Below are positions 1,607-42,440 of a stretch of 64,000 nucleotides of DNA, piece after piece. The stretch is taken from contig NZ_JABEQF010000006.1 in NCBI RefSeq assembly GCF_014174355.1, forward strand, positions 62,001-126,000. Direction: 5' to 3'. The first letter of the stretch is position 1; the number at the start of each line of letters is the position of its first letter. The notes under the pieces were generated by a model. The model was not told where the DNA came from and ran no database searches. It saw only the letters and a program-made list of their open reading frames with translations. A program made the translations under genes and the position numbers. Source of the DNA: Gluconacetobacter azotocaptans (GTDB taxonomy: Bacteria > Pseudomonadota > Alphaproteobacteria > Acetobacterales > Acetobacteraceae).

Positions 1607-2911
1607 TCACCCCCGCAGGCGGGACAGGCGGTCGGTCAGGCGGCCCTGGATGATTTTGGCGGTGACCCCCAGGGGCCAGGCGGCGTGGAAGGGGATGGGG
1701 CGGATGGGGCTGGGGGGCAGCAGGATGTCCTCGGTGGTGGCGCCCAGGGCGCGGCGGGCGATTTCGCGGCCCAGCAGGGTGGCCATGGCGACGCCGCGGC
1801 CGTTGTAGCCCACGCAGGCGATGATGCCCGGCATGGGTTCGTGCCAGTGCGGGTAATGGTCCAGCGTGACGGCGACATGGCCGTTCCAGCCGTGCGTCCA
1901 TTGCACGCCGTGCAGGAACGGCCACAGCGTCAGCGCGTGGCGTTGCAGGAAGGGGAAGGCGCCGGGGCCGGAACGCTCGGCCAGGGACGATCGGCCGCCG
2001 ATCAGCAGCCGGCCGGCGTCGTCGATCCGGTAATAGGTGGTGATCTCGCCCAGTTCGTACAGCACCTCGCGCGCCGCCAGGATGCGCGCGCGGATGTCGG
2101 GGGGCAGGGGGGCGGTGGCGACGATGGCGCTGGAGGCCGGCACCACCGTCCGGCGCAGGCGGTTCCACAGCCGGTCGGCATAGCCGTTGGTGGCGAAGAC
2201 CACGCGGTCGGCCCGCACCGCGCCGTTGCGGGTGCCGATGCGCCAGCACCCGTCGTCGCGGCGCAGCGACAGGGCGCGCGTGCCGCCGAAGATCTGCGCC
2301 CCGTGCCCGATGGCGGCCTGGGCCATGCCGCGCGCCAGGCCCAGCGGATTGACCTGCCCGCCGCGCCGGTCCAGCAGGGCGGCGCGATAGCGGCCGGTGC
2401 CGGTGCGGGCTGCGATGGCGGCATCGTCCAGCCACGCCACGTCGCCGCCGCGCGCGCGGCATTCGTCGGTTAGTTGCCGCAGGGCCGGGATCTGGTCGTC
2501 GCTGGTGGCCACGCGCAACGTGCCGCCGCGCGCGGCGGCGCAGGCGATGCCGTGGCGTTCGACAAGTTCAAAGACCAGATCGGGGGCGTTCCAGGCCGCG
2601 TGGGCCAGGCGCGCGCCGCGTTCGGGGCCGAAATCGCGCTCGACGTCCGAAGGCAGGGTCTTCAGGCCGGGGTTGACCTGCCCGCCGTTGCGGCCGGACG
2701 CGCCCCAGCCGGGGGCGTTGGCCTCCAGCACCGCCACCGCGTGCCCGGCCTCGGCCAGATGCAGCGCGGCCGACAGGCCGGTGAAACCGCCGCCGATCAG
2801 GGCGGTGCCCACCCGGATTTCGCCCGTCAGGGGCGGGGTGGGGACGGCGGGGCGGGCGGTTTCGGCGTACAGGCTGTCGGGCAGGGGCCGGCCTTCGGTG
2901 GGGTGGGTCAC
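1607..2911 (-). CDS. FAD-dependent amine/D-amino-acid oxidase family protein (DadA/PuuB-like)
   Basis: This is a 434-residue flavoprotein of the DAO fold. A dinucleotide-binding GGGFTG motif lies at residues 40-45, followed by the acidic residue ending the second strand (VLEAN) and the GASGRNGGQV signature typical of PuuB/DadA-type oxidases. The start is taken as the GTG at 2911, which overlaps the TGA of the upstream aldehyde dehydrogenase (GTGA); a longer frame from 2977 would sit inside that gene. The pairing suggests oxidative deamination of an amine (gamma-glutamylputrescine or similar) whose aldehyde product is then oxidised by the neighbour. No PuuA or PuuD gene lies beside it, so the substrate is uncertain. 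Confidence 0.85.
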   Translation of the reverse strand: MTHPTEGRPLPDSLYAETARPAVPTPPLTGEIRVGTALIGGGFTGLSAALHLAEAGHAVAVLEANAPGWGASGRNGGQVNPGLKTLPSDVERDFGPERGARLAHAAWNAPDLVFELVERHGIACAAARGGTLRVATSDDQIPALRQLTDECRARGGDVAWLDDAAIAARTGTGRYRAALLDRRGGQVNPLGLARGMAQAAIGHGAQIFGGTRALSLRRDDGCWRIGTRNGAVRADRVVFATNGYADRLWNRLRRTVVPASSAIVATAPLPPDIRARILAAREVLYELGEITTYYRIDDAGRLLIGGRSSLAERSGPGAFPFLQRHALTLWPFLHGVQWTHGWNGHVAVTLDHYPHWHEPMPGIIACVGYNGRGVAMATLLGREIARRALGATTEDILLPPSPIRPIPFHAAWPLGVTAKIIQGRLTDRLSRLRG

Positions 2912-4341
2912 GCTTCGGGTCCGTATCCCAGGATGGCCTTGATTTCCAGGAAGTCGGTCAGGCCGTATTCGCCGCATTCGCGCCCGTTGCCCGACTGCTT
3001 GTAGCCGCCGAAGGGGGCGGCGACGGTCCAGGCGGCGCCGTTGATGTTCACGTTGCCCGCCCGCAGCCGCCGTGCCACCGCCCGGGCGCGGGCCAGGTCG
3101 CCGGACTGTACATAGGCCGCCAGCCCGTAGGGGGTGTCGTTGGCGATGGCGATGGCGTCTTCCTCGTCGTCGTAGGCGATGATCGACAGCACGGGGCCGA
3201 AGATTTCCTCGCGCGCGATGGTCATGGCGGGGGTGACGTTGCCGAAGATGGTCGGGCGCACGTAATAGCCGACCGGCAGCCCCTCGGGCCGGCCGGGGCC
3301 GCCGGCCACCAGGGTGGCGCCCTCGTCGAGGCCGGCCTGGATCAGGGCCTGGATCTTGGCGAACTGCACGTCGCTGACCACCGGACCCAGGCGCGTGCCC
3401 GGGGCGTCCGGCGGGCCGACGATGAAGGGGGCCGCGGCCTCGGCGGCGATGGCCATCGCCTCGGCCATGCGCGCGCGGGGCACCAGCATGCGGGTGGGGG
3501 CGTCGCAGGACTGGCCGGAATTGCCGAAGCAGCCCGCCACCCCGCGCCGCACCGCGTCGGCGAGGTCGGCGTCGGGCAGGATGATGTTGGGCGATTTGCC
3601 GCCCAGTTCCTGATGCACGCGCTTGACGGTGTCGGCGGCCAGGCGGGCCACGATGGTGCCGGCGCGGGTCGAGCCGGTGAAGGACACCATCTCGATATCC
3701 CTGTGGCGGGCGATGGCCTCGCCGACCTCGGGCCCGTCGCCGTTCACCAGGTTATAGACGCCGGGCGGCACGCCGGCCTCGTCCAGGATCTCGGTGAAGA
3801 CCAGGCCGCTGAGCGGTGCGATCTCGCTGGGTTTCAACACCATGGTGCAGCCGGCCGCCAGCGCCGGGCCGACCTTGCAGGCGATCTGGTTCATCGGCCA
3901 GTTCCACGGCGTGATCAGCCCCACCACGCCCACGGGCTCGCGGGTGATCAGCATGTCGTCCACCTGCTGGTCGAACGTAAAGTCGCGCAGGGCGCGGATC
4001 ATCTGTTCCAGATGCGCCATGCCGGCCCAGGCCTGCGCGTCGCGGGCGAAGGGCAGCGGCGCCCCCATTTCCTGCGAGATGGCGGACGCCATGTCGTCCA
4101 TGCGGCGGCGATAGACGGTCAGGATCCGTTCCAGCAGGTCGATCCGCTCGGCCCGGGTCGAGACCGACCATGTTCCGAACGCCCGGCGCGCGGCGGCCAC
4201 GGCCAGATCGACATCGGCGGCGCTGCCCAGCGCGATGGTGGCGCAGGGGGCCTCGGTCGCCGGATTGATGACGTCGATCGTCCGGGGAACGGTGGGATCG
4301 ACCCATTTTCCGTCGATATACATCTGCAGGGCGTGGGCCAT
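2908..4341 (-). CDS. NAD(P)-dependent aldehyde dehydrogenase
   Basis: This is a full-length 477-residue aldehyde dehydrogenase. The oxyanion-hole asparagine is in PWNWP (Asn147), the cofactor lysine in LKPSE (Lys170), the general base in QELGGKSP (Glu245) and the nucleophile in NSGQSC (Cys279). The FGPVL and GYKQSGNGRE motifs near the C-terminus are also present. It oxidises an aldehyde to the acid in the cytosol. Its 3' end overlaps the start of the FAD oxidase by four bases, so the two are one translationally coupled operon with this gene first. PuuC or an aminobutyraldehyde dehydrogenase is a plausible specific role, but the substrate cannot be deduced. Confidence 0.92.
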   Translation of the reverse strand: MAHALQMYIDGKWVDPTVPRTIDVINPATEAPCATIALGSAADVDLAVAAARRAFGTWSVSTRAERIDLLERILTVYRRRMDDMASAISQEMGAPLPFARDAQAWAGMAHLEQMIRALRDFTFDQQVDDMLITREPVGVVGLITPWNWPMNQIACKVGPALAAGCTMVLKPSEIAPLSGLVFTEILDEAGVPPGVYNLVNGDGPEVGEAIARHRDIEMVSFTGSTRAGTIVARLAADTVKRVHQELGGKSPNIILPDADLADAVRRGVAGCFGNSGQSCDAPTRMLVPRARMAEAMAIAAEAAAPFIVGPPDAPGTRLGPVVSDVQFAKIQALIQAGLDEGATLVAGGPGRPEGLPVGYYVRPTIFGNVTPAMTIAREEIFGPVLSIIAYDDEEDAIAIANDTPYGLAAYVQSGDLARARAVARRLRAGNVNINGAAWTVAAPFGGYKQSGNGRECGEYGLTDFLEIKAILGYGPEA

Positions 4342-4421: not shown

Positions 4422-5459
4422 TCAGGCCTGGGACTGGCTCTGCGCGGGTGCGGGCGCGGGGGGCGGTTCCATGGGCGGCCAGAAGGCCTGGGCGATCTCG
4501 CCCTGCACCAGCCGCAGTTCGCGCTGTACCCAGTCGAGGAATTCGTGCAGGCCGCGCAGGATGATGTCCTTGACCGTCTGTTCGGCCAGGGTGGCGCGCA
4601 GTTCCTCGATCCGTTCGGCCGCCGCGTACCCGTGCTTCAGCCCGTAATCGGTGCGCAGGTGCCCCACCGCCCAGTGCAGCTGGCGCAGGCAGGTGGACAG
4701 CGACCGGGGGAAGCCGTCGTTCTTCAGCAGGAAGCCTGCGACGGTGCCGGGCGTCATCTCGCCCGGCACGACGCGGCGGAACGCATGGTAGGCGGCGGCC
4801 GAACGCAGCACGGCGGTCCACTGGCTGATATCGACCTCGGACCCCACCCCGGCCACGCTGGGCAGCAGCGTGTGGTATTTGATGTCGATCAGCCGCGTGA
4901 TCTGGTCGCCGCGTTCCAGGTTGCGCCCGATGAGGTAGAACAGCCACGCCTGGTCGCGATAGAACGTGCCTTCGGTAATGCCGTGATGGGTCTGGCATTC
5001 CTGTTTCAGCCGGGCGCACAGCGCCGACAGGTTGGACGAGCGGATGTCGGTGGTGCCCAGCGCCCGGACGGTGTTGGTGAAGATATTGAGCTGCGTCCAC
5101 ATCTCGGTCGAGATCAGGGGCCGCAGCGCGCGCGCGTTTTCCCGCGCCGCATGGGCGATCGAGGCGATGGAGTTGGGGTTTTCGCGGTCGGTGACGTAGA
5201 AGCCGACCACGCTTTCCTCGGTCGCGACCGCGTGGCGTGCGAAGAACCGCTCCTCGTCGGCATTGATCTGGATGATCGACTGCCAGCCGTTCACGGTGCT
5301 GCCCGAGCGGACGAAGGTCTCGGTCACGTCGATCAGGCGCGCGAGGTTCTCGATCCGCTCCATGTAGCGCGCCAGCCAGATGGTGCATTCGGCATAGCGC
5401 GACAGCAGGATGGGCATGGTCCCGTCGGCGGGCGGGGCATCGACGATGATCGGGTTCAT
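4422..5459 (-). CDS. Alpha-E domain protein (COG2307)
   Basis: This 345-residue helical protein belongs to the alpha-E family, recognised by its opening LLSRYAECTIWLARYMERIE and the inner YRDQAWLFYLIGRNLERGDQ segment. The family has no established activity. It is almost always encoded with circularly permuted ATP-grasp proteins and transglutaminases, as here. The ATG at 5459 overlaps the TGA of the upstream ATP-grasp gene (ATGA), so the two products are probably made in fixed ratio. The C-terminus ends in a Pro/Ala tail. A second alpha-E domain is fused to an ATP-grasp protein at 11834-14386, which suggests that the two proteins here work as a complex. Confidence 0.88.
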   Translation of the reverse strand: MNPIIVDAPPADGTMPILLSRYAECTIWLARYMERIENLARLIDVTETFVRSGSTVNGWQSIIQINADEERFFARHAVATEESVVGFYVTDRENPNSIASIAHAARENARALRPLISTEMWTQLNIFTNTVRALGTTDIRSSNLSALCARLKQECQTHHGITEGTFYRDQAWLFYLIGRNLERGDQITRLIDIKYHTLLPSVAGVGSEVDISQWTAVLRSAAAYHAFRRVVPGEMTPGTVAGFLLKNDGFPRSLSTCLRQLHWAVGHLRTDYGLKHGYAAAERIEELRATLAEQTVKDIILRGLHEFLDWVQRELRLVQGEIAQAFWPPMEPPPAPAPAQSQSQA

Positions 5460-6928
5460 GACGCCAGCACCCATGTATCCTTCGACCCCCCGCCCTGCGA
5501 GGAATTGACCACCAGAGATCCCTTGCGCAGGGCCACGCGCGACAGCCCGCCCGGCAGCACCCAGGTGGAGCGGCCCGTTACCGCGAACGGCCGCAGGTCC
5601 ACATGCCGGGCCTCGACCCCCGCGTCGCACAAAGTGGGGCAGACCGACAGGCTGATGACCGGCTGGCTGATGTAGTTGGCCGGGTCGGCCAGCAGCTTGA
5701 CGCGGAACTCGTCCAGTTCGGTCCGGGTGGCGTGCGGGCCGATGATCAGCCCGTATCCGCCGGATTCGCCCACCGGCTTGACCACCAGCTTGTCCAGGTT
5801 GGCCAGCGTGTAGGCCAGCCCCTCGGCCTCGGCGCAGATATGGGTGTCGACGTTCGACAGGATGGGTTCTTCCGACAGGTAATAGCGGATGATGCGCGGC
5901 ATGTAGGCGTAGACCGCCTTGTCGTCGGCCACGCCGGTGCCGATGGCGTTGGCGATGGTCACGTTGCCGCGCCGGTAGGCGTCCACCAGCCCGGGCACGC
6001 CCAGCATGCTGTCGGGGTTGAAGACCTGGGGGTCGAGAAAATCGTCGTTCAGGCGGCGGTAGATCGAATGGACCGGGCGCAGGCCCGCGACGGTGCGCAT
6101 GTAGACGCGGCCGCCTTCCACCACCAGGTCGCGCCCCTCGACCAGCGGCACGCCCATTTCGCGCGCCAGGAACACATGCTCGAAATAGGCCGAATTGTAG
6201 ATGCCGGGCGACAGCAGCACCACCTGCGGGTCCATGACCCCCTGGGGGGCGACCTCGGCCAGGGCATGACGCAGGCGCAGGCCGTACTCGTCGACCGGCA
6301 TGAGGTCCAGCCCCGCCGCCAGGTCCGGCATGACGCGCAGCATCATGTGCCGGTTCTCGATGACGTACGACACGCCCGAGGGGGTGCGCGCATTGTCTTC
6401 CAGCACCAGGAACCGGCCGTCGCCGTCGCGCACGATGTCGGTGCCGTTGATATGGACGTAGACCCCGCCGGGCACGTCCAGCCCCTCCATCTCGGGCCGG
6501 TAGTTGGGGTTGCCCAGCACCAGCTCGGCCGGGATGATCCCGTCCTTCAGGATGCGCTTCTCGTGGTAGATGTCCCACAGGAAATGGTTGATGGCGGTGA
6601 CCCGCTGGCGCACCCCGCGCTCGACATGGTCCCACTCGGCGGCGGTCAGGATATGCGGGATCAGGTCGAAGGGCAGGATGCGGTCGATCGCGTCGCGGTC
6701 GGTATAGACGGTGAAGGTGATGCCCAGGTTGTACAGCTCGGCCTCGGCCGCGCCGGCGCGCTGGCGCAGTTCGGGCAGGTCGAAGCGCGACAGGCGTTCG
6801 CGCACCAGGGCCAGGCTGTCGGGCGGGGCATCCTTGCGATTCATCAGCTCGCAGAAGAAATCCGGCGTGTCATAGGCGACGAACAAGCCGGCGCGCTGGG
6901 CCGTGCCCCGATCTGTCAGGTCACTCAT
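5456..6928 (-). CDS. Circularly permuted ATP-grasp (type 2) protein, COG2308
   Basis: This 490-residue protein matches the DUF404/DUF407 circularly permuted ATP-grasp family. The N-terminus has the FDLIPHI and W..IERG-like region, then LNxFLxDIY (NHFLWDIYHEKRIL), the LEDNARTPSGVSYV motif near residue 185 and a late KPVGESGGYGL segment that supplies ATP-grasp residues. The fold predicts ATP-dependent ligation of a carboxylate to an amine, so a peptide or amide ligase role is likely. The substrate is unknown. It is the first gene of a two-gene minus-strand operon with the alpha-E gene and is divergent from the large transglutaminase gene at 7155. Confidence 0.9.
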   Translation of the reverse strand: MSDLTDRGTAQRAGLFVAYDTPDFFCELMNRKDAPPDSLALVRERLSRFDLPELRQRAGAAEAELYNLGITFTVYTDRDAIDRILPFDLIPHILTAAEWDHVERGVRQRVTAINHFLWDIYHEKRILKDGIIPAELVLGNPNYRPEMEGLDVPGGVYVHINGTDIVRDGDGRFLVLEDNARTPSGVSYVIENRHMMLRVMPDLAAGLDLMPVDEYGLRLRHALAEVAPQGVMDPQVVLLSPGIYNSAYFEHVFLAREMGVPLVEGRDLVVEGGRVYMRTVAGLRPVHSIYRRLNDDFLDPQVFNPDSMLGVPGLVDAYRRGNVTIANAIGTGVADDKAVYAYMPRIIRYYLSEEPILSNVDTHICAEAEGLAYTLANLDKLVVKPVGESGGYGLIIGPHATRTELDEFRVKLLADPANYISQPVISLSVCPTLCDAGVEARHVDLRPFAVTGRSTWVLPGGLSRVALRKGSLVVNSSQGGGSKDTWVLAS

Positions 6929-7154
6929 ATCCTATGTCCCCCGTGCCGGACGGGGGATCAGGCGCGAAGGAGTCATGTCCACCCACCTGCTGGTCCGTTT
7001 ATTCCATTGCAGCCAAGCAAGAAATCGTCCGCTCGCCAAGGGCCAATCCGATGCAGAATCGTGATGTCCGATTTTCCCGGCCACCCCCTGTTCGTCCGCA
7101 TGCCATGTGGGGTAGCGTTCTGCGGGCGGAACACTTAAATCTTAAGGCCGATGC
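6929..7154. promoter_or_regulatory. Divergent promoter region of the ATP-grasp and transglutaminase operons
   Basis: These 226 bases separate two divergent operons of the same functional set and must hold promoters for both. I see no convincing sigma-70 hexamer pair. TAAGG just before the ATG at 7155 can serve as ribosome binding site. The arrangement favours joint control of both arms. Confidence 0.45.
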
Positions 7155-10100
7155 ATGACCCTGCACGTCGCGCTGACACATAGCACACGGTATCGTTACG
7201 ATCGTCCGGTGGCCCTGGGCCCGCAGACGGTCCGGCTGAGGCCCGCACCCCACGCCCGCACCCCGATCGTGTCCTATGCGCTGCGGATCGAACCCAAGCC
7301 GCATTTCATCAACTGGATGCAGGATCCGTCGGGCAATTATCAGGCGCGGATCGTCTTTCCCGAACCGGTGACGCATTTCGACGTCACGGTTGATCTGGTG
7401 GCTGACATGGCCACGATCAACCCGTTCGACTTCTTCCTCGAACCCCAGGCCGAGCAGTGGCCGTTCGCCTACGATCCGGTGCTGGCCGGCGAACTGGCGC
7501 CCTACCGCACGCGCGAGACGCCCGGCCCGCTGCTGCAGGCGCTGCTGGACGGTATCGACCGCACGCCGCGCCATACGGTGGACATGCTGGTGGCGCTGAA
7601 CCAGCAGGTGCAGGCGCGCATCGCCTATGTCGTGCGGATGGAGCCGGGCGTCTGGACGCCCGAGGAAACGCTGGAAAGCGGCACCGGGTCGTGCCGCGAC
7701 AGCGCGTGGCTGCTGGTGCAGATCCTGCGGCACCTGGGCTTCGCGGCGCGGTTCGTGTCGGGCTACCTGATTCAGCTGGTCGCGGACCAGAAGCCGCTGA
7801 CCGGCCCCGAAGGCCCCACCGAGGACTTCACCGACCTGCATGCCTGGGCCGAGGTCTACCTGCCCGGCGCGGGCTGGGTGGGGCTGGACGCCACGTCGGG
7901 CCTGCTGACCGGCGAGGGCCACATTCCGCTGGCCGCGACCCCGGAACCGGCGTCGGCCGCCGCGATTTCCGGCCTGATCGGAAAATGCGAGACCGAGTTC
8001 GATTTCGCCATGTCGGTCACCCGGGTCCTGGAGACGCCCCGGACCACCAGGCCCTACAGCGAGGCGCAGTGGCAGGCGATCCTGGCCGCCGGCCGCACGG
8101 TGGACGCCAGCCTGGACGCCGGCGGCGTGGACCTGACGATGGGGGGCGAGCCCACCTTCATCGCCGCCGACGACATGGACGCGGCGGAATGGAACACCGA
8201 CGCGCTGGGCCCGACCAAGCGCGCCTATGCCGGGCGGCTGCTGCGGCGGCTGATGCCGCCGTGGACCACAGGGGCGGCGATCCAGCACGTGCTGGGCAAG
8301 CATTACCCCGGCGAGCAGCTGCCGCGCTGGGCGCTGCTGTGCCACTGGCGCCGGGATGGCGAGCCGGTGTGGACCGACCCGTCGCTGCTGGCGTCCGACG
8401 ACGATTCCGACACCGCGACCGAGGCCGACGCCGCCGCCTTCTGCCGCGCGCTGGCCGAGCGGTTGCAGGTCGATCCCGGGCTGGTCAGTCCGGCCTACGA
8501 GGACATCCATTACTATCTGTGGCGCGAGCATCGCCTGCCGGCGAACGTGATCGTCGAGGATGCGAAGCTGCGCGACCCGCTGGAGCGCGACCGCCTGGCC
8601 CGCGTCTACGGCCACGGGCTGAACGTGCCGGTGGGCAGCGTGCTGCCGCTGCGCGTGGTGGAACGCGACGGCGTGCGGCGCTGGCAGTCCGGCCGGTGGT
8701 TCTTCCGCGGCGACCTGATGTTCCTGGTGCCGGGCGACGCGCCGGTGGGCTTCCGCCTGCCGCTGCAAAGCCTGCTGTGGGCCGACGAGGCCAGCATCGA
8801 CCACGATATGGAGCGCGACCCCTTCGCGCCCCGCATGCCCCTGCCGCCCCATCCGGGGCTGGCCCGCCGCACGGCCGGCCCGGCGACCAGCGCGCCCGAA
8901 TGGGCGGGCCAGGGCGTGCCGGGCCGGGCGGCGCCGGGCGGCGTCGCCTCGGGCGGCGACATGCCGGCCCTGTCCGACCTGCCGGCCCTGCCGCCCTATC
9001 CGGGCGGGGGCGCGGGGCGGATGTCGCTGGACCAGGCGATGCGCGGCCATCTGGTCGCCGTGGGGCAGCAGGACCCGGAACTGGTGCGCACCGCCCTGGC
9101 GGTGGAGGCGCGGGGCGGCATCCTGCATGTGTTCTTCCCGCCGCTGTACGCCGTCGAGGACTGGCTGGACCTGTGCGCGGCGGTCGAGGACACGGCCCGC
9201 GCCGCCGGGCGCAAGGTAGTGCTGGAAGGCTACCAGCCGCCGCGCGACCCGCGCCTGCTGAATTTCTCGATCACGCCCGACCCGGGGGTGATCGAGGTCA
9301 ACATCCACCCCGCCGCAAGCTGGGACGAGCACGTCACCCGCAGCGAGCAGCTGTACGACCAGGCGCGGCAGGTGGGGCTGATCGCCGAGAAATTCATGCT
9401 GGACGGCCGCCATGTCGGCACCGGTGGCGGCAACCATGTGGTGATGGGCGCGGCCCGCGCCGCCGACAGCCCGTTCCTGCGCCGGCCGGACCTGCTGAAG
9501 TCGCTGGTGGGCTTCTGGCACAACCACCCGTCGCTGTCCTATCTGTTCAGCGGCCTGTTCATCGGCCCGTCCTCGCAGCATCCCCGGGTGGACGAGGCGC
9601 GCGACGACAGCGTGGCGGAACTGGAAATCGCGTTTTCCCAGGTCCATCCCGACCGGCCGACGCCGCCCTGGCTGACCGACCGCCTGTTCCGCAACACCCT
9701 GGCGGACATGACGGGCAACACGCATCGCACGGAATTCTGCATCGACAAGCTCTATGCGCCGGAAAGCAGCACCGGGCGGCTGGGGCTGGTGGAATATCGC
9801 GCGTTCGAGATGCCGCCCCATCACCAGATGGCGGCGGCGCAGATGCTGCTGATGCGCGCGGCGGTGGCGGCGTTCTGGGCGCAGCCCTACGACCGGCGGC
9901 TGGTGCGCTGGGGCACGCGTCTGCATGACGATTTCATGCTGCCGCATTACGTCCGGCAGGATTTCGACGACGCGCTGGCCGAACTGCGCGCGCTGGGCGC
10001 GCCGCTGGACCCCGGCTGGTTCGCGCCGCACATGGATTTCCGCTTCCCCGAAATCGGGTCGGTATCCGTGCTGGGCATGACGCTGGACCTGCGGCATGCG

Positions 10101-10586
10101 CTGGAACCGTGGAACACCCTGGCCGAGGAGCCGGGCTCGGGCGGCACCGTGCGCTATGTCGACAGCTCGGCCGAACGGGTGCAGGCGCGGGTGACCGGCT
10201 GGGTGGACGAACGCTACGTGCTGGCCTGCAACGGCGTGGCCGTGCCGCTGACGCGGACCGACCGCCAGGGCGAGTATGTCGGCGGCGTCCGCTTCAAGGC
10301 CTGGAACCCGCCCAGCGCCCTGCACCCCACGGTGGGCGTGCAGTCGCCGCTGATCTTCGACATCTACGACAGCTGGACCGGGCGCAGCGTGGGTGGGCTG
10401 ACGCACCATGTCGCCCATCCGGGCGGCCGCAATTACGAGACGCGGCCCGTCAACGCCAACGAGGCCGAGGCCCGGCGGCGCACGCGCTTCTTCCCGTTCG
10501 GCCATACCGTGGGCACGATGGCGCCCCCGGTGCTGCGCCGGTCGCTGGAGCAGCCGCGCACGCTGGACCTGCGCCGGTTTTCCTGA
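7155..10586 (+). CDS. Transglutaminase-DUF2126 fusion protein
   Basis: This very large (1143-residue) protein has a bacterial transglutaminase-like N-terminal domain (about residues 1-80, opening LHVALTHSTRYRYDRPV), a transglutaminase/cysteine-protease core and then a DUF2126 region from about residue 290 to the end. The catalytic triad is visible: Cys180 in GSCRDSAW, His229 in LHAWAEV and Asp245 in LDATSG. No signal peptide is seen, so it probably acts in the cytosol. The fold predicts amide hydrolysis or transamidation. DUF2126 has several conserved His, Glu and Asn stretches (for example TGGGNHVVMG and WHNHPSLSYLFSG) but no known activity. This gene heads the plus-strand arm of the cluster. 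Confidence 0.92.
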   Translation: MTLHVALTHSTRYRYDRPVALGPQTVRLRPAPHARTPIVSYALRIEPKPHFINWMQDPSGNYQARIVFPEPVTHFDVTVDLVADMATINPFDFFLEPQAEQWPFAYDPVLAGELAPYRTRETPGPLLQALLDGIDRTPRHTVDMLVALNQQVQARIAYVVRMEPGVWTPEETLESGTGSCRDSAWLLVQILRHLGFAARFVSGYLIQLVADQKPLTGPEGPTEDFTDLHAWAEVYLPGAGWVGLDATSGLLTGEGHIPLAATPEPASAAAISGLIGKCETEFDFAMSVTRVLETPRTTRPYSEAQWQAILAAGRTVDASLDAGGVDLTMGGEPTFIAADDMDAAEWNTDALGPTKRAYAGRLLRRLMPPWTTGAAIQHVLGKHYPGEQLPRWALLCHWRRDGEPVWTDPSLLASDDDSDTATEADAAAFCRALAERLQVDPGLVSPAYEDIHYYLWREHRLPANVIVEDAKLRDPLERDRLARVYGHGLNVPVGSVLPLRVVERDGVRRWQSGRWFFRGDLMFLVPGDAPVGFRLPLQSLLWADEASIDHDMERDPFAPRMPLPPHPGLARRTAGPATSAPEWAGQGVPGRAAPGGVASGGDMPALSDLPALPPYPGGGAGRMSLDQAMRGHLVAVGQQDPELVRTALAVEARGGILHVFFPPLYAVEDWLDLCAAVEDTARAAGRKVVLEGYQPPRDPRLLNFSITPDPGVIEVNIHPAASWDEHVTRSEQLYDQARQVGLIAEKFMLDGRHVGTGGGNHVVMGAARAADSPFLRRPDLLKSLVGFWHNHPSLSYLFSGLFIGPSSQHPRVDEARDDSVAELEIAFSQVHPDRPTPPWLTDRLFRNTLADMTGNTHRTEFCIDKLYAPESSTGRLGLVEYRAFEMPPHHQMAAAQMLLMRAAVAAFWAQPYDRRLVRWGTRLHDDFMLPHYVRQDFDDALAELRALGAPLDPGWFAPHMDFRFPEIGSVSVLGMTLDLRHALEPWNTLAEEPGSGGTVRYVDSSAERVQARVTGWVDERYVLACNGVAVPLTRTDRQGEYVGGVRFKAWNPPSALHPTVGVQSPLIFDIYDSWTGRSVGGLTHHVAHPGGRNYETRPVNANEAEARRRTRFFPFGHTVGTMAPPVLRRSLEQPRTLDLRRFS

Positions 10587-10599
10587 CGCCTGCCGCTGT

Positions 10600-10615
10600 C
10601 CCCCCGCCAGGGGGG
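10600..10615 (+). terminator. GC hairpin after the transglutaminase gene
   Basis: Six C, a GCCA loop and six G form a perfect stem 14 bases past the stop codon. No T-run follows, so it may attenuate rather than terminate, or act as an mRNA 3' stabiliser. Confidence 0.35.
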
Positions 10616-10650
10616 AACGCCATGGGGGGAACGGCCGCCGCCGCCCCGGC

Positions 10651-10673
10651 GTTATTCCCTTTTCGGGGATAAC
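10651..10673 (+). promoter_or_regulatory. Leader hairpin before the zinc peptidase gene
   Basis: GTTATTCCC at 10651-10659 and GGGGATAAC at 10665-10673 form a nine-base stem (one T-G wobble) with a five-base loop, ending 17 bases before the GTG at 10691. It could be an RNA structure affecting translation or a DNA operator. Function is inferred from position only. Confidence 0.3.
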
Positions 10674-10690
10674 TGCCGTGGGGGCGCGTC

Positions 10691-11773
10691 GTGAAACTGT
10701 TTGCCTGTCAGTCCTGCAACCAGATCCTGTTTTTCGAGAACACGATGTGCGAGCGCTGCCATCATGTGCTCGGCTACCTGCCCGATTGCAACGACCTGAC
10801 CGCGCTGGAACCCGTCGAGGACATCGAGGGGGCATGGCGTCCGCTGTCGGAAGCGGCCGGCGCCGATGCGGTGCGGTTCTGCGCCAACGCCGAGCATGGG
10901 GTGTGCAACTGGCTGGTGCCGGACGGGGGCGACGCCTTCTGCGTGGCCTGCCGCCATAACCGGGTGATCCCGGACCTGTCGATCGACGGCAACGGCGAAC
11001 GCTGGCGGCAGCTGGAATCGGCCAAGCACCGGCTTTTCTATACCCTGCTGTGCCTGGACCTGCCCATGCGGACCCGCCAGCAGGACCCGCAGGGCGGCCT
11101 GGCCTTCGATTTCCTGGAAGACCCGACGGGCGGCGGCCGGGTGATGACCGGCCATCAGGACGGCGTCATCACCATTGCGGTGCGCGAGGCCGACGACGCC
11201 ACGCGCGAGACCATGCGCGTCGAGATGGGCGAGCATTATCGCACCCTGCTGGGCCATTTCCGGCACGAGATCGGCCATTACTACTGGAACGTCCTGGTCC
11301 GCGACGGCGGCCGGCTGGAGGATTGCCGCGCGGTGTTCGGCGACGACAGCCAGGACTACCAGGCGGCGTTGCAGTACCATTACGAAGCCGGCCCCCCGCC
11401 GGGCTGGCAGGACGAATATGTCAGCGAATACGCCACCACCCACCCGTGGGAGGACTTCGCCGAGACCTGGGCCCATTACCTGCACATCGTCTCGACGCTG
11501 GAAACGGCGCAGGCGTACGGCCTGTCGGTGGGCGTGCGGATTTCCAGCGACCCGTCCTTTCAGACCGCGGTCGATTTCAACCCTTATACGGTCGATTCGT
11601 TCGACCAGGTGGCGCGGGCGTGGCTGCCGCTGACCTATGCGGTGAACAGCCTCAACCGGTCGATGGGCCAGTCGGATTTCTATCCGTTCGTCCTGCCCGT
11701 GCCCGTGCTGCGCAAGCTGGCCTTCATCCACGCGCTGGTGCATCGGGCGCCGGCGCCCCAACCGGCGACCTAG
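10691..11773 (+). CDS. Putative zinc-binding metallopeptidase with N-terminal zinc ribbon
   Basis: This 360-residue protein starts at a GTG. The N-terminus is a zinc ribbon with paired cysteines at 6, 9, 20 and 23, and a second set appears around the HGVCNW and FCVACRHN segments. A classic gluzincin motif HEIGH (His192-Glu193-His196) follows, and the downstream WEDFAETWAHYLH segment probably supplies the third metal ligand. This matches the family annotated as putative zinc-binding metallopeptidase (Peptidase_Mx). It lies between two genes of the ATP-grasp/transglutaminase set in the same orientation, so it probably processes the product or a protein partner of that system. It has no signal peptide. 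Confidence 0.88.
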   Translation: MKLFACQSCNQILFFENTMCERCHHVLGYLPDCNDLTALEPVEDIEGAWRPLSEAAGADAVRFCANAEHGVCNWLVPDGGDAFCVACRHNRVIPDLSIDGNGERWRQLESAKHRLFYTLLCLDLPMRTRQQDPQGGLAFDFLEDPTGGGRVMTGHQDGVITIAVREADDATRETMRVEMGEHYRTLLGHFRHEIGHYYWNVLVRDGGRLEDCRAVFGDDSQDYQAALQYHYEAGPPPGWQDEYVSEYATTHPWEDFAETWAHYLHIVSTLETAQAYGLSVGVRISSDPSFQTAVDFNPYTVDSFDQVARAWLPLTYAVNSLNRSMGQSDFYPFVLPVPVLRKLAFIHALVHRAPAPQPAT

Positions 11774-11833
11774 CCGACGGGGCGGCGCAAGGCCGTTTAC
11801 TGTTGACCGGCGTTCGCCCATACATCGGGCATC

Positions 11834-14386
11834 ATGGACCTGGAGCGCATTCCCCTGGACGAAATGGTGGACGGACGCGGTGGCGTTCGGCCCCATTGGC
11901 GCGGCCTGCTGGGCGCGATCAGCGATCTCGGCCATCGGGACCTGCTGGAACGCGCGCGGCAGATGGCGCGCGCGCTGCACGACCAGACCGGCATCGCGGG
12001 CGGCACGCCGCCGCTGGCCGGGGGGTGCGACCCGGTGCCGCTGCTGCTGACGGCGCAGGAATTCGACCGGCTGGGCGACGGGATCGTGCAGCGCGCGCGT
12101 ATCCTGGAGGACACGCTGCGCGACCTGTACGGCCCGCGCACGCTGCTGGCCGACGGTGTGCTGCCGCCGGCGCTGGTGTATCCGGCCCCGGGCTTCCTGC
12201 GCATGGGCGACCATCCGGGGCCGGGGTGGGACGTGCCGCCCCGGCAGTTCCTGTCGTTCTATTCGGCCGATCTGATTCGCGGGCCCGATGGCGGCTGGCG
12301 GGTGGTGGCCGACCGGGTGGCGCGGGCCAACGGCATCGGGCGGGCGCTGGAAAACCGCCGGCAGATGGCGCGCGTGCTGCCCGAACTGTTCTCGGGCCGC
12401 GAGGTCCGGCGCCTGACCCCGTTCTTCGAATCCTGGCAGGACAGCCTGCAACGGCTGGCGGGCCTGTCCGACCGCAACCCGGGGCTGGCGCTGCTGACCC
12501 CGGGCCCGCGGGGGCCGCAATGGGCGGAACACGTCATCCTGGCGCGCGAACTGGGCTGCGTGCTGGCCGAGGCCGGGGACCTGACGGTGCGCGACGGCGC
12601 GCTGTGGCTGAAGACCGTGCGGGGCCTGCGCCGGGTGGATGTGCTGCTGCTGCGGCAGGACGGCTGGACGGTCGATCCGCTGGAGCTGGACGGCGGGCCG
12701 GTGCCGGGCATCGCCGGGCTGCTGGATGCCGTGCGCAGCGGGGCGGTGCATCTGGTGAACGACCCCGCCGCCGGCGTGGTCGAGGCCCCGGGGTTCGCCG
12801 CCTTCATGCCCGACCTGGCCGCCCGGTTCCTGGAGCGCGACCTGCTGCTGCCGGACACGCGGACCCTGTGGCTGGGCGATGTGCCCGGCGGGCTGGGGGA
12901 TCTGCTGGCCGGTGACCGGTCGCGCTGGTGGCTGCGGCCCGTCGCGGACGCCATGGCGCCGGTGCGCCGGCTGGACCGGCTGGACGACGACGCCCTGGCG
13001 GCCCTGCGCCGCGCGCCCGAACGCTTCGTGGCGGTCGAGGCCGTGCCGCCGTCGGTGATGCCGTCGGTCCAGCCCGGTGGGATCGAACCCGGCGCCATCG
13101 TGCTGCGCCTGTTCGCCCTGTTCGACGGCGCCGACTGGCAGGTGCTGCCCGGCGGCATGGCGCATCTGCTGCCTGATGCCGACGCGGCGCCCGGCCGGCG
13201 GCTGGGTGGGCAGGTCGTCACCAAGGACGTCTGGGTCACGGTCGAGGACAGCACCGACACCATCGGGGCGGCGGTGCTGCCGACGATGACGCTGGCCATC
13301 CGCCGGGGGCAGGGGGACCTGCCCAGCCGGGCCGCCGATGATTTCTTCTGGCTGGGCCGCTATCTGGAACAGTTGGAAGGCGCCGGCCGCGTGCTGCGCG
13401 GGGTGACGGGCCGCGCCGGCCGGGTGGACGGGTCGCCGCGCGAACGGGTGGAACTGGAAACCCTGCTGCGGCTGGCCGGCCATGTCGGCCTGTTGCAGGA
13501 CGAACCGGCGATCGGCGCGGGGTTTCCGACCCTGGTGCGGATGCTGTCGGGCGTCGCCTTCGATTCCGGCCTGCCGCAGCGCCTGCTGTCCGAGATCGCG
13601 CGGGTCGCGGCGGGATTGCAGGACCGGCTGACGGCGGAAACCTACGACACCATCGTCCAGGGCACCGAGGCCCTGCGCGGCCAGTTGCAGGACACCCGCG
13701 TGCCCGGCGACCCGGGCCGCACGCTGGAACGGATCGGGCGGGTGACCGACGGGCTGCTGCGCTATGGCGCCACCATTTCGGGCCTGACGGCCGAGAACAT
13801 GGTGCGCAACGGCGGGCGGCAGTTCCTGGACCTCGGCCGCCGGATCGAGCGCGCCGGGGCGATCCTGACGTCGATCGCGCTGGTGCTGCAGCAGAAGGAC
13901 GTGGCGCAGCGCGGCCGGATGGAGGGCGCGCTGCGCCTGATCCTGGAACTGAGCGACTGCGTCATCACCTATCGCTCGCGCTATTTCGCGGTGTTGCAGC
14001 CGGGGCCGGTGCTGGACCTGCTGCTGCTGGACGAGGGCAATCCGCGCGGGGTCGCCAGCCAGATGGCCATGATCGGCGACGCGCTGGCTGATCTGAGCCA
14101 GGCCGATCCGGACCGGCCGGCCGCCGGCCCGGTGGGCGGGGCCGACCTGCTGCGCGCCGTCCGCGCCATCATGGACCGGCTGCACGGGGTGGTCGACGAC
14201 GTGCTGGCGGCGCCGCGGCAGGACAGCATGGCCGCGACCCTGCCCGACCGCATCCTGGACATCCGCGACGACATCCGCGACCTGGCCCGCCAGATCGCGC
14301 GCCGCTACTTCGTGGTGCTGATACCGCCGCGCGCGGTGGGTGGCGGGCATTATGTCGACAGGGGCGGAGCGGGGGACGAGGCATGA
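11834..14386 (+). CDS. Circularly permuted ATP-grasp/alpha-E fusion protein
   Basis: This 850-residue protein joins in one chain the two activities that are split at 4422-6928. The N-terminal half (about 1-480) is a circularly permuted ATP-grasp domain with FLSFYSADLIRGPDGGWRVV, LENRRQMARVLPELF and a QVVTKDVWV-type end. From about residue 494 an alpha-E domain begins (PSRAADDFFWLGRYLEQLE) and runs to the C-terminus. Fusion supports physical coupling of the two domains. The ATP-grasp half differs strongly from the 490-residue paralogue: the usual LEDNARTPSG region here reads VADRVARANGIG, so its active site may be altered. It sits between the zinc peptidase and a second transglutaminase gene. 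Confidence 0.9.
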   Translation: MDLERIPLDEMVDGRGGVRPHWRGLLGAISDLGHRDLLERARQMARALHDQTGIAGGTPPLAGGCDPVPLLLTAQEFDRLGDGIVQRARILEDTLRDLYGPRTLLADGVLPPALVYPAPGFLRMGDHPGPGWDVPPRQFLSFYSADLIRGPDGGWRVVADRVARANGIGRALENRRQMARVLPELFSGREVRRLTPFFESWQDSLQRLAGLSDRNPGLALLTPGPRGPQWAEHVILARELGCVLAEAGDLTVRDGALWLKTVRGLRRVDVLLLRQDGWTVDPLELDGGPVPGIAGLLDAVRSGAVHLVNDPAAGVVEAPGFAAFMPDLAARFLERDLLLPDTRTLWLGDVPGGLGDLLAGDRSRWWLRPVADAMAPVRRLDRLDDDALAALRRAPERFVAVEAVPPSVMPSVQPGGIEPGAIVLRLFALFDGADWQVLPGGMAHLLPDADAAPGRRLGGQVVTKDVWVTVEDSTDTIGAAVLPTMTLAIRRGQGDLPSRAADDFFWLGRYLEQLEGAGRVLRGVTGRAGRVDGSPRERVELETLLRLAGHVGLLQDEPAIGAGFPTLVRMLSGVAFDSGLPQRLLSEIARVAAGLQDRLTAETYDTIVQGTEALRGQLQDTRVPGDPGRTLERIGRVTDGLLRYGATISGLTAENMVRNGGRQFLDLGRRIERAGAILTSIALVLQQKDVAQRGRMEGALRLILELSDCVITYRSRYFAVLQPGPVLDLLLLDEGNPRGVASQMAMIGDALADLSQADPDRPAAGPVGGADLLRAVRAIMDRLHGVVDDVLAAPRQDSMAATLPDRILDIRDDIRDLARQIARRYFVVLIPPRAVGGGHYVDRGGAGDEA

Positions 14387-14420
14387 GGGCGACGGGCGCG
14401 CAGGGCCGGGGGGGCCGCAC

Positions 14421-15317
14421 ATGATCTATCGCGTGCGCCACGCCACCCGCTACGTCTATGGCCGCCCGGTCGATCTGGCGGCCCATATCGTGCATGTGAC
14501 GCCGCGCGACCTGCCGGGCCAGGCGGTGCTGTGGACGCGGCTGGAGGTCACGCCCGCCCCGGTGCGGCGCGTGGACGGCGTGGATTATTTCGGCAATCCG
14601 GTCGCGTGGCTGTATCACGAGGCCCCGCACCTGACCTTCGACGTGCTGACGGAATCGGAGGTCGATGTCGATTTCGCCCGGCCTCCGCCGGAGGAGACGA
14701 CCCTGGCGTGGGAGGATGTGGCGGCCCTGGCGCGGGTGGGCGGGGGCCCGGCCCTGGATGCGGCGGAATTCCTGTTCGACAGCCCGATGTGCGCGGCCAA
14801 CGCGGCGGCGGGGGAGTACGCGGCCCTGTCGTTCGCGCCGGGGCGCCCCGTGCTGGCGGCGCTGCTGGACCTGAACCGGCGGATCTATACCGAATTCCGC
14901 TTTCGCGCCGGGGTCACCACGCTGTCCACCCCGGTCGATCAGGTGCTGAGCCGGCGCGAGGGCGTGTGCCAGGATTTCACGCATCTGATGATCAGCGCGC
15001 TGCGCCAGGTCGGCGTGCCGGCGCGCTACATGTCCGGCTATATCCGCACGCGGCCGCCGCCGGGGCAGAAGCGCCGCCTGGGGTCCGACCAGTCCCACGC
15101 CTGGGTGGGGGCCTGGCTGGGGCCGGAGCACGGCTGGGTGGGGCTGGACCCCACGAACGGCATCGTGGTGCGGGCCGAGCATGTGGTGCTGGGCTGGGGC
15201 CGCGATTACGGCGACATCAGCCCGGTGCGCGGCCTGATCCTGGGGGGCGGGGACGACGTGCTGACGGTGGGGGTCGATCTGGTCCCGGCCGACGAATGGC
15301 CCGACATCGCCCCATAG
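14421..15317 (+). CDS. Transglutaminase-like family protein
   Basis: This 298-residue protein starts at the ATG at 14421, behind a G-rich Shine-Dalgarno stretch; a longer frame from 14340 would overlap the previous gene. It has a transglutaminase N-terminal domain (MIYRVRHATRYVYGRPV) and a core with Cys183 in GVCQDFTHL, His226 in SHAWVGAW and Asp243 in LDPTNG, so the triad is complete. It is the stand-alone relative of the transglutaminase part of the 1143-residue fusion and closes the plus-strand arm of the cluster. It probably hydrolyses or transfers an amide or isopeptide bond; the substrate is unknown. Confidence 0.92.
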   Translation: MIYRVRHATRYVYGRPVDLAAHIVHVTPRDLPGQAVLWTRLEVTPAPVRRVDGVDYFGNPVAWLYHEAPHLTFDVLTESEVDVDFARPPPEETTLAWEDVAALARVGGGPALDAAEFLFDSPMCAANAAAGEYAALSFAPGRPVLAALLDLNRRIYTEFRFRAGVTTLSTPVDQVLSRREGVCQDFTHLMISALRQVGVPARYMSGYIRTRPPPGQKRRLGSDQSHAWVGAWLGPEHGWVGLDPTNGIVVRAEHVVLGWGRDYGDISPVRGLILGGGDDVLTVGVDLVPADEWPDIAP

Positions 15318-15352
15318 GCACCAAGTTATATGGGACAAGGAAGGTCGGGCGC

Positions 15353-15470
15353 TGCCCGAACCCGGCAAGGGCCTCGGCCCGTGCATCCCATTCGTTTCAT
15401 GAAGTCCTGGGTTTCCAAAGGGCCAGGCCCTTTGGTGGGTCAAGGGCAACGCCCTTGCCGGGTTCGGGCA
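15353..15470. repeat. Inverted-repeat element with nested hairpins
   Basis: Arms TGCCCGAACCCGGCAAGGGC at 15353-15372 and its perfect reverse complement at 15451-15470 enclose about 80 bases. Inside or at the edge lie two smaller hairpins, CCAAAGGGCC/GGCCCTTTGG (15415-15435) and AAGGGC/GCCCTT (15442-15456). It lies between convergent genes. It could be a bidirectional terminator or a dispersed intergenic repeat of the REP/BIME kind; copy number in the genome would decide. Confidence 0.6.
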
Positions 15471-15486
15471 GAGCCCGGCCTCTCCC

Positions 15487-15648
15487 TCAGGGGGTCTTCT
15501 GCAATCCGTCCTGGTAGCCCAGCGCCTGCCACCGTTCCCGCGTGCTGACGGGGCCATGGTGGTGGGCGTGCTTTCCGCCGCCCCCGCCGCAGGCGGCAAG
15601 CAAGAGAAGAAGTGTGGTCATGCTGAAAAGCCGGATCGTCTGGGTCAA
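15487..15648 (-). CDS. Small lipoprotein (53 residues)
   Basis: This small gene reads from a TTG at 15648 to a TGA at 15487. AGGAGG stands six bases before the TTG, which decides the start; the only in-frame ATG (15621) would cut the signal peptide. The product has an Arg in the n-region, the hydrophobic run MTTLLLLLAAC and a lipobox LAAC, followed by five glycines, a His-rich KHAHHH tract and a short tail RERWQALGYQDGLQ. The lipidated protein would be only about 35 residues, perhaps binding metal through the His cluster. I do not recognise a family. It is followed by the inverted-repeat element, which may be its terminator. Confidence 0.65.
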   Translation of the reverse strand: MTQTIRLFSMTTLLLLLAACGGGGGKHAHHHGPVSTRERWQALGYQDGLQKTP

Positions 15649-15733
15649 CGCTGCCTCCTGCCGGGGAAGGCACCGTCCTTAGCAGACAACCCCGCCCGCG
15701 CGGAAGATGCGCGGGCGGAACGGGTGCGCGCGG

Positions 15734-16645
15734 TCAGCCGGCCTGCGGCAGCACGGTGCGGACGATGCTGCCGTCCAGCGCCTCGTACTCGTGATAGCGC
15801 AGGGTGCGGTACAGTTCCTCGCGCGTCTGCATGCGCGGCAGCATGCGCTGCGTGCTGCCGTCCTGGCGCAGGGCGGCGTACAGTTCGGCCTGGGCGCGGT
15901 TGGCGACGCGCAGCGAACTGACGGGCCAGATGACCATGCGATAGCCCATGGCCTGGAACTGGGACGCGGTGAAGAACGGCGTGCGGCCGAATTCCGTCAT
16001 GTTGGCCAGCAGCGGCACGTCGGGCAGGCGCTGGGCGAAGGCGCGGAACATCGCCTCGTCGGTCATGGCCTCGGGGAAGATCGCGTCGGCCCCGGCTTCG
16101 CGATACAGGCGGGCGCGGGCCACGGCGCCGTCCAGCCCTTCGGTGGCGGCGGCGTCGGTGCGCGCCACCACCACCAGGTGGCGTGCTGCGCGCGACGCGG
16201 CCTGGATCTTCAGCGCCATTTCCTGCGGCGGGACCAGCTTCTTGTCGTTCAGGTGCCCGCATTTCTTGGGCAGGACCTGATCCTCGATATGCACGGCGGC
16301 CGCGCCGGCGTCCTCGAACGCGCGGACCATGTTCATCACGTTCAGCGTCTCGCCATAGCCGGTGTCGCCGTCCACCAGCAGCGGCAGGCCGCTGGCGCGG
16401 ACGATCTGGCGGATGAAGAACGTCACCTCGTCGATGGTGATGATGCCCAGGTCCGGCAGGCCCATGCTGGCGGTCATGGCCGCGCCCGACAGGTAGAGCG
16501 CGTCGAACCCGGCATCGCGGGCCTGGAGGGCGGCCTGGCCGTTGTGCGCGCCGGGCAGTTGCAGGATGCCGTCGCCTTGCAGCAGGCGGCGGAAGCGGAG
16601 GCCGGCGGCCTGGTCGGGCAGGTCCGCCCCGGTCAGGTAGGTCAT
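15734..16645 (-). CDS. prpB: Methylisocitrate lyase
   Basis: This 303-residue enzyme of the isocitrate lyase/PEP mutase superfamily cleaves 2-methylisocitrate to pyruvate and succinate, the last step of the 2-methylcitrate cycle for propionyl-CoA. The catalytic signature KKCGH has its cysteine at residue 129; metal and substrate segments VDGDTGYGE and HIEDQ precede it and ARTDA follows. The ATG at 16645 overlaps the TGA of prpC (ATGA). The gene order on the transcript is prpD, prpC, prpB. Length and motifs are normal for the family. Confidence 0.95.
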
Positions 16646-17805
16646 GCCGCGATCTCCATCGTCTCGCGTTCCGCCATCGGCACGAAGCGGCGGGGCGCCG
16701 GGCCGGTGTAGTTGGCCGACGGCCGGATGATCTTGCCGTCCTGGCGCTGTTCCATCACATGGGCGCTCCATCCCGCCGTGCGGGCCATGACGAACAGGGG
16801 CGTGAACATCGCCGTGGGCACGTTCATCATGTGGTAGGACACGGCGCTGAACCAGTCGAGGTTCGGAAACATGCCCCTGCTGTCGGCCATGACCTGTTCC
16901 ACCCGCGCTGCGATGTCGTAGGTCCGGCGTGTCCGCGCCCGGTCGGACAAGGTGCGCGCGAACCCCTTGATTATGGCGTGCCGGGGGTCGGCGATGGTGT
17001 AGACCGGATGGCCGAAGCCGATGACGATTTCGCGTTCGGCCAGGCGGCGGCGGATATCGGCCTCGGCCTCGTCCGGGTCGGCGTAGCGCTGCTGGATGTC
17101 CAGCGCGACCTCGTTGGCGCCGCCGTGCCGGGGGCCACGCAGGGCGCCGATGCCGGCGGTGATGGCCGAATACATGTCGGCCCCGGTGCCCGCCACCACC
17201 CGGCAGGCGAAGGTCGAGGCGTTGAATTCGTGCTCGGCATACAGGATCAGCGACGCATGCATCGCGCGCACCCATTCGTCGGGGGGCTGCCGCCCGTGCA
17301 GCAGGTGCAGGAAATGGCCGCCGATGCTGTCGTCGGCGGTCTCGACGTCGATGCGGCGGCCGTGGTTCGAGAAATGATACCAGTACATCAGCATCGAACC
17401 CATGGACGCCAGCAGCCTGTCGGCGACCTCGCGCGCGCCGGCGGGCGACAGGTCGGCGCGTTCGGGCAGCACGCAGCCCATGATCGACACGCCCGATCGC
17501 AGCACGTCCATCGGATGGGCGGCGGCGGGCAGGTCTTCCAGCGCGCGGCGCACCGCTTCGGGAAGGCCCCGGCTGGCGCGTAGCTTTTCCATATAGGCGG
17601 CCAGCACCGATGCGCCGGGCAGCGTGCCGTGGACCAGCAGATGGGCGATTTCCTCGAAACGGCAGTTTTCGGCCAGGTCGCGGATGTCATAGCCCCGGTA
17701 CTGCAGGTCGTTGCCGCTGTGCCCGACCGAACTCAGCGCCGTGTTGCCGGCGGCGACGCCGGACAGGGCGACCGATTTCTTGGGGCGGGGTGGGGTCTGG
17801 GTCAT
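16642..17805 (-). CDS. prpC: 2-methylcitrate synthase
   Basis: This 387-residue member of the citrate synthase family condenses propionyl-CoA with oxaloacetate. It has the family landmarks [13 protein letters not shown] near the N-terminus, [14 protein letters not shown] with the catalytic His, [10 protein letters not shown] and [13 protein letters not shown], and an arginine-containing C-terminus (RRFVPM). The shorter length than housekeeping citrate synthase and the position between prpD and prpB support PrpC rather than GltA. It starts 29 bases after prpD and is coupled to prpB by a four-base overlap. Confidence 0.95.
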
Positions 17806-17834
17806 GGATCAGGCTCCCTTGCGTAGAGTGGTTC

Positions 17835-19355: not shown

Positions 19356-19472
19356 GGGCGCCTCCTGTTTTTGATTTCCTGCTTGTGAATATTGCAAGAA
19401 TCCGGCGTCGGATAAGCTGCATTCGGGCGAATAAGGGCAACAGCCCGGCCCCGCGTTGCGAAAGGTGCGAAG
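19356..19472. promoter_or_regulatory. prpDCB/regulator divergent promoter region
   Basis: This 117-base spacer between divergent genes holds an imperfect palindrome, CTTGTGAATATTGCAAG at 19382-19398, with outer arms CTTG and CAAG. It is a plausible binding site for the adjacent regulator: RamB/PrpR-type proteins elsewhere bind TTTGCAAA-like sites, and the TTGCAAG half is similar. This assignment is inference. Confidence 0.35.
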
Positions 19473-20921: not shown

Positions 20922-20986
20922 GGCTTCCCCTGGCGCGGGATCGGGCCGATATATCCCGCCAGGACAGTCTCCCAGAGGGAAACACC

Positions 20987-22080: not shown

Positions 22081-22103
22081 CGTATCGGCTTCCCTGCGAA
22101 GGA

Positions 22104-22832: not shown

Positions 22833-22857
22833 CGGCGGCGCGCCGTCCGCGACCGGG

Positions 22858-42427: not shown

Positions 42428-42440
42428 GAGGGCCGGCGCC

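Follow-up and report, generated by a model that had tools for sequence, protein, structure and literature searches.

Iyer et al. 2009 reportedly predicted that linked genes for ATP-grasp, alpha-E and transglutaminase proteins serve to form and cleave peptides, and a locus of this amidoligase type from Gluconacetobacter azotocaptans (Pseudomonadota) is analysed here. The DNA examined, called the window below, is a stretch of 64,000 nucleotides (contig NZ_JABEQF010000006.1, positions 62,001 to 126,000, forward strand), and the locus occupies positions 4422-15317 of it. A preliminary description from the sequence had listed six genes in two divergent arms, and a profile search of each window protein matched all of the stated Pfam domains. 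The minus arm encodes a split circularly permuted ATP-grasp ligase (A) and an alpha-E protein (E), and the plus arm encodes a transglutaminase domain fused to DUF2126 (TD), a zinc-ribbon metallopeptidase (Mx), an ATP-grasp/alpha-E fusion (F) and a stand-alone transglutaminase-like protein (T). The window shares the linked ATP-grasp, alpha-E and transglutaminase genes of the systems of Iyer et al. 2009 and is a member of a known, uncharacterised kind. The present analysis adds a predicted pseudo-ligase that extends through the whole fused family, a five-gene core, and an enrichment of sigma-54-type promoter patterns in relatives.

Among described systems, the Anbu operon, in the available portions of PMC6376114 and PMC5666114, shares the A, E and T families with the window, and these papers also cite the amidoligase prediction to which the preliminary description had rightly tied the locus. 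The window differs from that operon in adding TD, F and Mx, and an alignment search of its own genome for Anbu gave no match, indicating that the locus is not an Anbu operon (Anbu together with A, E and T). In Burkholderia cenocepacia H111, the genes I35_5080-5083 (DUF404/407, DUF403, a transglutaminase and a large transglutaminase protein) are clustered as they are here, and the accessible text of PMC5491218 lists them as NtrC/sigma-54 dependent and without a function, whereas in the window neither A nor TD is preceded by a sigma-54-type site. A Burkholderia locus among those fetched (L233) shows the gene order A-E-T-TD-F-T. Glutathionylspermidine synthetase/amidase makes and cleaves a peptide-amine amide within one protein, using a Cys amidase domain for the cleavage. 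It is the nearest functional analogy, of logic only: the model of F has a fold match to it (2io7), but its type of fusion is not among the six genes, in which the ligase and the cysteine enzymes are distinct proteins or are fused in other ways. The Mycobacterium tuberculosis genes Rv2566-Rv2569c and Rv2409c-Rv2411c presumably bear the same domain families.

Gene A (5456..6928, minus strand; PF14403, 536 bits) is predicted from its residues to encode an active ligase. The residues of an active circularly permuted ATP-grasp enzyme (E177, N179, K384 and GGYG) are all present, and in the alignment the Glu177-Asp178-Asn179 (Glu-x-Asn) motif is intact at 6392..6400 on the minus strand. This motif contains metal ligands of ATP-grasp enzymes. 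In 45 split proteins Glu177, Asn179, Arg181, Lys384 and the GG of the GGYG loop were invariant, and in a larger split set Glu, Asn and Lys were kept in 78/78 proteins (76/76 when only distinct sequences were counted); this set has 79 rows, one of which (L257) is a fusion truncated where its contig stops, hence 78 split proteins. The solved homologue 3n6x, titled putative glutathionylspermidine synthase, matched A with an E value of 1.6e-167. According to the part of PMC6376114 available, the ATP-grasp protein of the Yersinia bercovieri Anbu operon releases phosphate from ATP. The partner of A, the alpha-E protein (4422..5459, minus strand; PF04168, 279 bits), probably starts at the ATG at 5459, which overlaps the stop of A by ATGA. 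Its Arg/Glu motifs are conserved across the split family, and a sequence search at an E value of 1 found no relative of split alpha-E with a solved structure.

Gene F (11834..14386, plus strand; PF14403, 316 bits; PF04168, 168 bits) does not carry these ATP-site residues. In the alignment, Ala159-Asp160-Arg161 (12308..12316, plus strand) replaces the Glu-Asp-Asn of A, and the lysine and the Gly-rich loop are lost in the window copy; the earlier comparison of LEDNARTPSG with VADRVARANGIG was correctly aligned. Judged by these residues, F would be a member of PF14403 by fold and not by active site. The same loss was observed throughout the fusions. Of 49 fusions, none retained Asn, one retained Glu, one Arg181 and 10 Lys, and in a larger set of 124 the counts were 0 for Asn, 1 for Glu and 57 for Lys (0, 1 and 56 among 123 distinct sequences). 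The sole one of the 124 that retains the Glu of Glu-x-Asn (L119 in genome G162, fusion at 5890-8400, minus strand) has His in place of Asn.

The fusions formed one clade (support 1.0, branch 0.74), with the truncated L257 also inside it, in one FastTree run on 459 columns. The ratio of nonsynonymous to synonymous substitution rates (dN/dS) of the window F was 0.13-0.33, indicating purifying selection, and this together with the single fused clade leads us to read F as a conserved pseudo-ligase. Decay of F in this lineage was ruled out by the same dN/dS values and by the identical loss across the clade. The altered ATP site pointed out in the preliminary description is neither a local oddity nor the mark of a recent duplicate; on the aligned residues, it runs through the entire fused family in the relatives examined. 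The alpha-E half of the fusions has kept the shared Arg/Glu motifs and has lost several residues that are invariant in split alpha-E. In the AlphaFold model of F (predicted local distance difference test score, pLDDT, 85.9), the best fold match was 3n6x, followed by glutathione synthetases, glutathionylspermidine synthetase/amidase (2io7), YjfC/YgiC and trypanothione synthetase, while the alpha-E half had no convincing fold placement among the best 50 matches listed. No published account of an inactive fusion was found in the open literature searched, which did not cover Iyer et al. 2009.

The TD gene (7155..10586, plus strand; PF08379, PF01841, PF09899 1235 bits) and the T gene (14421..15317, plus strand; PF01841, PF08379) supply the two cysteine enzymes. 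Both the N-terminal domain of TD and the T protein combine PF01841 with the Cys-His-Asp triad of the transglutaminase superfamily. The TD triad (Cys180/His229/Asp245) was invariant over 43 proteins, with a mean column identity of 57%, and at least 95% of 120 relatives retained that of T. The catalytic triads are therefore intact, as had been claimed, and so is the HEIGH motif of Mx with its eight zinc-ribbon cysteines. Among named relatives, those closest to TD come from Acetobacter (75% identical; records highly similar to the window were possibly excluded). Pfam names DUF2126 (PF09899) a putative amidoligase. The AlphaFold model of TD, which is of moderate quality (pLDDT 71.6), gave weak Foldseek matches to glutamine synthetases among the best 50 listed (E values 0.012-0.28, target template-modelling scores 0.23-0.31), the listing showing no aligned ranges, and gamma-glutamylmethylamide synthetase was also among the weak matches. 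Compared with known structures by sequence, TD matched transglutaminase structures, plus two matches at an E value of 0.5, and nothing else.

To place the window among its relatives, 249 genomes of the phylum were surveyed, of which 200 had a completeness of 90% or more and a contamination of 5% or less. PF14403 was found in 136 of them, DUF2126 in 71 and Peptidase_Mx in 34. All 71 DUF2126 genomes carried PF14403, and 67 had at least two matches; copy number here means matches at an E value of 0.001, the second copies not each being confirmed as fusions. The co-occurrence counts omit the genomes with weak matches only, for ATP-grasp G021, G121, G152 and G180 and for Mx G200 and G217. From these counts A is the constant member of the system, and TD and F are usual but separable. 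In one of the eight genomes with two ATP-grasp matches and no DUF2126 match (L131, G126), A, E, F and T stand together.

Gene order was compared in a phylum set of 50 loci that includes the window, a second set of 8 and a named set of 70, after the omission of 1, 0 and 10 loci, respectively, in which the sequence beyond TD was too short; one genome is present in the named set and another set (L144 = L272). F followed TD on the same strand in 37/50 phylum loci and 65/70 named loci, and T followed F in this arrangement in 37/50 and 64/70. Among the exceptions without F after TD, 10 of 13 in the phylum set and 1 of 5 in the named set still carried F elsewhere in the locus. A and E were located in the locus of TD in 23/50 phylum and 24/70 named loci, and all six genes were together in 3/50, 5/8 and 2/70 loci of the three sets. 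A linked set of A, E and transglutaminase genes of the amidoligase type is conserved across genomes, in agreement with the preliminary description, since TD, F and T are usually adjacent and A and E are often in the locus. The neighbourhood survey that the description had called for thus found no unlinked scatter of TD, F and T, but A and E accompany TD in about half of the loci or fewer. The usual core consists of the five genes A, E, TD, F and T; it is widespread and not peculiar to the window. Kinship was handled by 90% identity clustering of the promoter counts (given below) alone, and with relatedness otherwise ignored the p-values overstate independence.

Within the genus, the order of all six genes was kept in 5/5 other fetched genomes, and all six were under purifying selection (dN/dS 0.07-0.37), which together place the six-gene set beyond chance. 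The only two PF14403 matches in the own genome both lie within the window. On a plasmid of Enterobacter roggenkampii (NZ_CP116251.1), the core forms one unit, A-E-TD-F-T, running in one direction and without Mx in the stretch seen, with overlapping ends among A, E and TD and at F/T. The unit lies at 15034-24225 (L352) on this blood isolate plasmid, near arsC and an IS26 transposase. A megablast search with the unit matched no other plasmid record and no E. coli genome. On pSymB of Sinorhizobium meliloti Ak57 (L353), a long F-like ATP-grasp protein and a transglutaminase are encoded together beside glycogen genes, and the 20 kb stretch covered has no TD gene.

The upstream regions of the core genes were searched for promoter patterns. 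A strict sigma-54-type -24/-12 pattern within 250 bases upstream was observed for 37/137 TD genes and 15/79 A genes, compared with 54/2852 other open reading frames (ORFs) and 1/124 F genes; the 2852 control ORFs are not all genes, and the 79 A rows include L257. In shuffled upstream sequences the counts were 4 for TD, 0 for A, 13 for other ORFs and 1 for F. After 90% identity clustering the pattern was still present for TD in 29/111 and for A in 15/68. Sigma-54 control of the window genes themselves was considered and rejected: A and TD have no strict site in front of them, and within the first 20 kb both strict matches fall inside genes. On a looser scale with a maximum of 22.2, the upstream regions of the window's A and TD scored 16.5 and those of its Mx and F 19.0-19.2, the Mx and F groups overall being not above background.

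The enrichment upstream of TD and A in relatives is in line with published nitrogen data, as far as the accessible parts of the sources go. In Pseudomonas putida, PP_2685 and PP_2688 were higher on nitrate than on ammonium (PMC8050072), and under nitrogen limitation PP_2686-2688 were raised in three strains (printed values 11 to 37), with printed values of 1.1 to 4.8 for PP_2685 (PMC7801951). In a Burkholderia cenocepacia ntrC mutant, the genes I35_5080-5083, corresponding to A, E, T and the large transglutaminase protein, were lowered (PMC5491218). In marine metagenomes, DUF403/404/407 were associated with urea metabolism domains (PMC3597751). In both relatives for which expression data are available the genes thus react to the nitrogen supply, and the product may therefore serve in the storage, tagging or recycling of amine nitrogen.

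The zinc peptidase Mx (10691..11773, plus strand; PF15887, 373 bits; PF10005, 100 bits) has HEIGH at residues 192-196 and the eight zinc-ribbon cysteines of Peptidase_Mx, and the cysteines and HExGH were kept in at least 92% of 39 relatives. It is not a required part of the system, as a strong match was found in just 22/71 DUF2126 genomes and the five-gene Enterobacter plasmid unit is without it. In 11 of the 32 genomes with a strong match, drafts included, Mx was at most 10 kb from an A or TD gene, a count from which contig breaks may hide some. Its site between TD and F, observed in the window, in five genus mates and in one named locus (Acetobacter conturbans, L212), is a local arrangement. 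Anbu was found in 84/249 genomes, 83 of which carry the ATP-grasp family, and 25/80 fetched loci contained it, its median distance to a core gene being 24 bases. Replacement of Anbu by Mx was considered and rejected: among ATP-grasp genomes, 23 had both, 8 had Mx only, 60 had Anbu only and 41 had neither (p 0.20). Both Mx and Anbu appear to be optional peptidases.

Taken together, we read the locus as a nitrogen-linked system that makes and breaks amides and in which an active ligase is paired with a non-catalytic protein, and we give this reading a probability of roughly 0.4. A would activate the carboxylate of a peptide or glutamate-like substrate as an acyl phosphate and join it to an amine, with alpha-E helping substrate binding. 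F, without ATP use, would bind the substrate of A or A itself as a scaffold or regulator, TD and T would cleave the amide or transfer it, and a further ligase, of the glutamine-synthetase type, may be contributed by DUF2126. The complete make-edit-cleave cycle suggested in the preliminary description finds no support beyond inference. As to the kind of product, we prefer a peptide-amine conjugate on account of the fold neighbours and the link to nitrogen. A bolder version, in which F is a non-catalytic subunit needing its active sibling and forms, with alpha-E, the two cysteine enzymes and DUF2126, an unrecognised machinery for nitrogen starvation, producing and cutting a new peptide-amine conjugate as a self-contained five-gene unit, found also on an enterobacterial plasmid, is in our view unlikely.

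Several results weigh against the make-and-break reading. The window A and TD have no strict sigma-54-type site upstream, and no product or substrate of these genes was found in the open literature searched. F and TD are separable, since a single ATP-grasp match was found in 4/71 DUF2126 genomes, and two matches were found in 8 genomes that lack DUF2126; a further 53 have one match without DUF2126, so that A and E often occur without the rest. A ligase role for DUF2126 rests on the name given by Pfam and on fold matches that are weak (lowest E value 0.012, for a glutamine synthetase), and an hhalign comparison of DUF2126 with 24 glutamine synthetase and 17 GCS2 proteins, based on shallow alignments, gave a probability of 0.1%. 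In the available portion of PMC6376114, Yersinia Anbu was inactive on three standard substrates and formed no stable complex with its operon partners.

The last result bears also on the idea that these enzymes put a peptide tag onto proteins and take it off again in a pupylation-like way, with tag processing or degradation left to Anbu or Mx. It corresponds to the protein-tag half of the amidoligase prediction in print, the Anbu papers put forward tagging hypotheses (PMC6376114 and PMC5666114, parts available), and the close association of Anbu with the ATP-grasp family and the core genes described above agrees with it. However, Anbu gave no match in the own genome and showed no activity in vitro, and no candidate tag was found near the core genes among ORFs of at least 110 amino acids, Anbu being by far the commonest close neighbour family; a short tag would be missed because of that length limit. 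We consider protein tagging, the chief alternative to a peptide-amine conjugate, somewhat unlikely.

The sequence pattern of F could also mean that it is not dead but has switched chemistry, its Asp-Arg-Thr-Gln motif binding another ligand and catalysing an ATP-independent step. The fusions do have a consensus of their own, with Arg for Asn in 114/124, Gln for Arg181 in 98/124 and Arg446 kept in 124/124, and the window F is under purifying selection. This is quite improbable, however, given that little of the Gly-rich loop survives, that 57/124 retain the ATP lysine, and that the window copy lacks the TQAPSG usual in the fused family, suggesting relaxed constraint at the old site. That the two arms are separate pathways which share domain families and are merely co-located would fit the 53 one-copy ATP-grasp genomes without DUF2126, in which A and E occur without TD and F, and the presence of A and E in just 23/50 and 24/70 TD loci. 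The reverse was not seen, as 71/71 DUF2126 genomes carry the ATP-grasp family; a co-directional five-gene unit exists on the Enterobacter plasmid, and A, E, T and the large transglutaminase protein share NtrC dependence in Burkholderia (PMC5491218, accessible text), so that we give separate arms little credence.

As to the gene models, the start of T was set at the ATG at 14421, replacing a GTG at 14340. The GC content at third codon positions (GC3) was 0.88-0.92 in the five frames passing the composition filter, and the alpha-E frame was not separately scored because its longest ORF extends upstream into the A gene. NCBIfam models gave zero matches to any of the six proteins at an E value of 0.001. 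Downstream of alpha-E, on the same strand and 80 bases away, a DAO-type oxidase and an aldehyde dehydrogenase are encoded at 1607-4341 (minus strand), and among the NCBIfam families listed none attains its cut-off for this pair. The two were rejected as a conserved part of the locus: the dehydrogenase follows E in 3/5 genus mates (L194-L196), the oxidase is present in two (L194 and L195; the L196 stretch stops short), and neither gene is in L192-L193. The family of the window's aldehyde dehydrogenase occurred in 14/80 loci of the wider set, at a median distance of 4.3 kb. Elsewhere in the window, 16642-20921 encodes citrate synthase, MmgE/PrpD and an ScfR-type regulator and resembles a methylcitrate-type cluster, and 38119-46397 (minus strand) carries, on one strand, hydantoinase/oxoprolinase A and B, biotin carboxylase and a carboxyltransferase protein, possibly for the breakdown of a nitrogen compound. 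A PGA_cap (bacterial capsule synthesis) protein is encoded at 52986-54296 (minus strand).

For the family as a whole, the pairing of an active with an inactive sibling ligase offers a testable handle, as the two can be distinguished by point mutants. The five-gene unit shows that linkage to Mx and Anbu is dispensable, and nitrogen supply is the condition under which the product may be sought. These gene families are widespread in the surveyed phylum.

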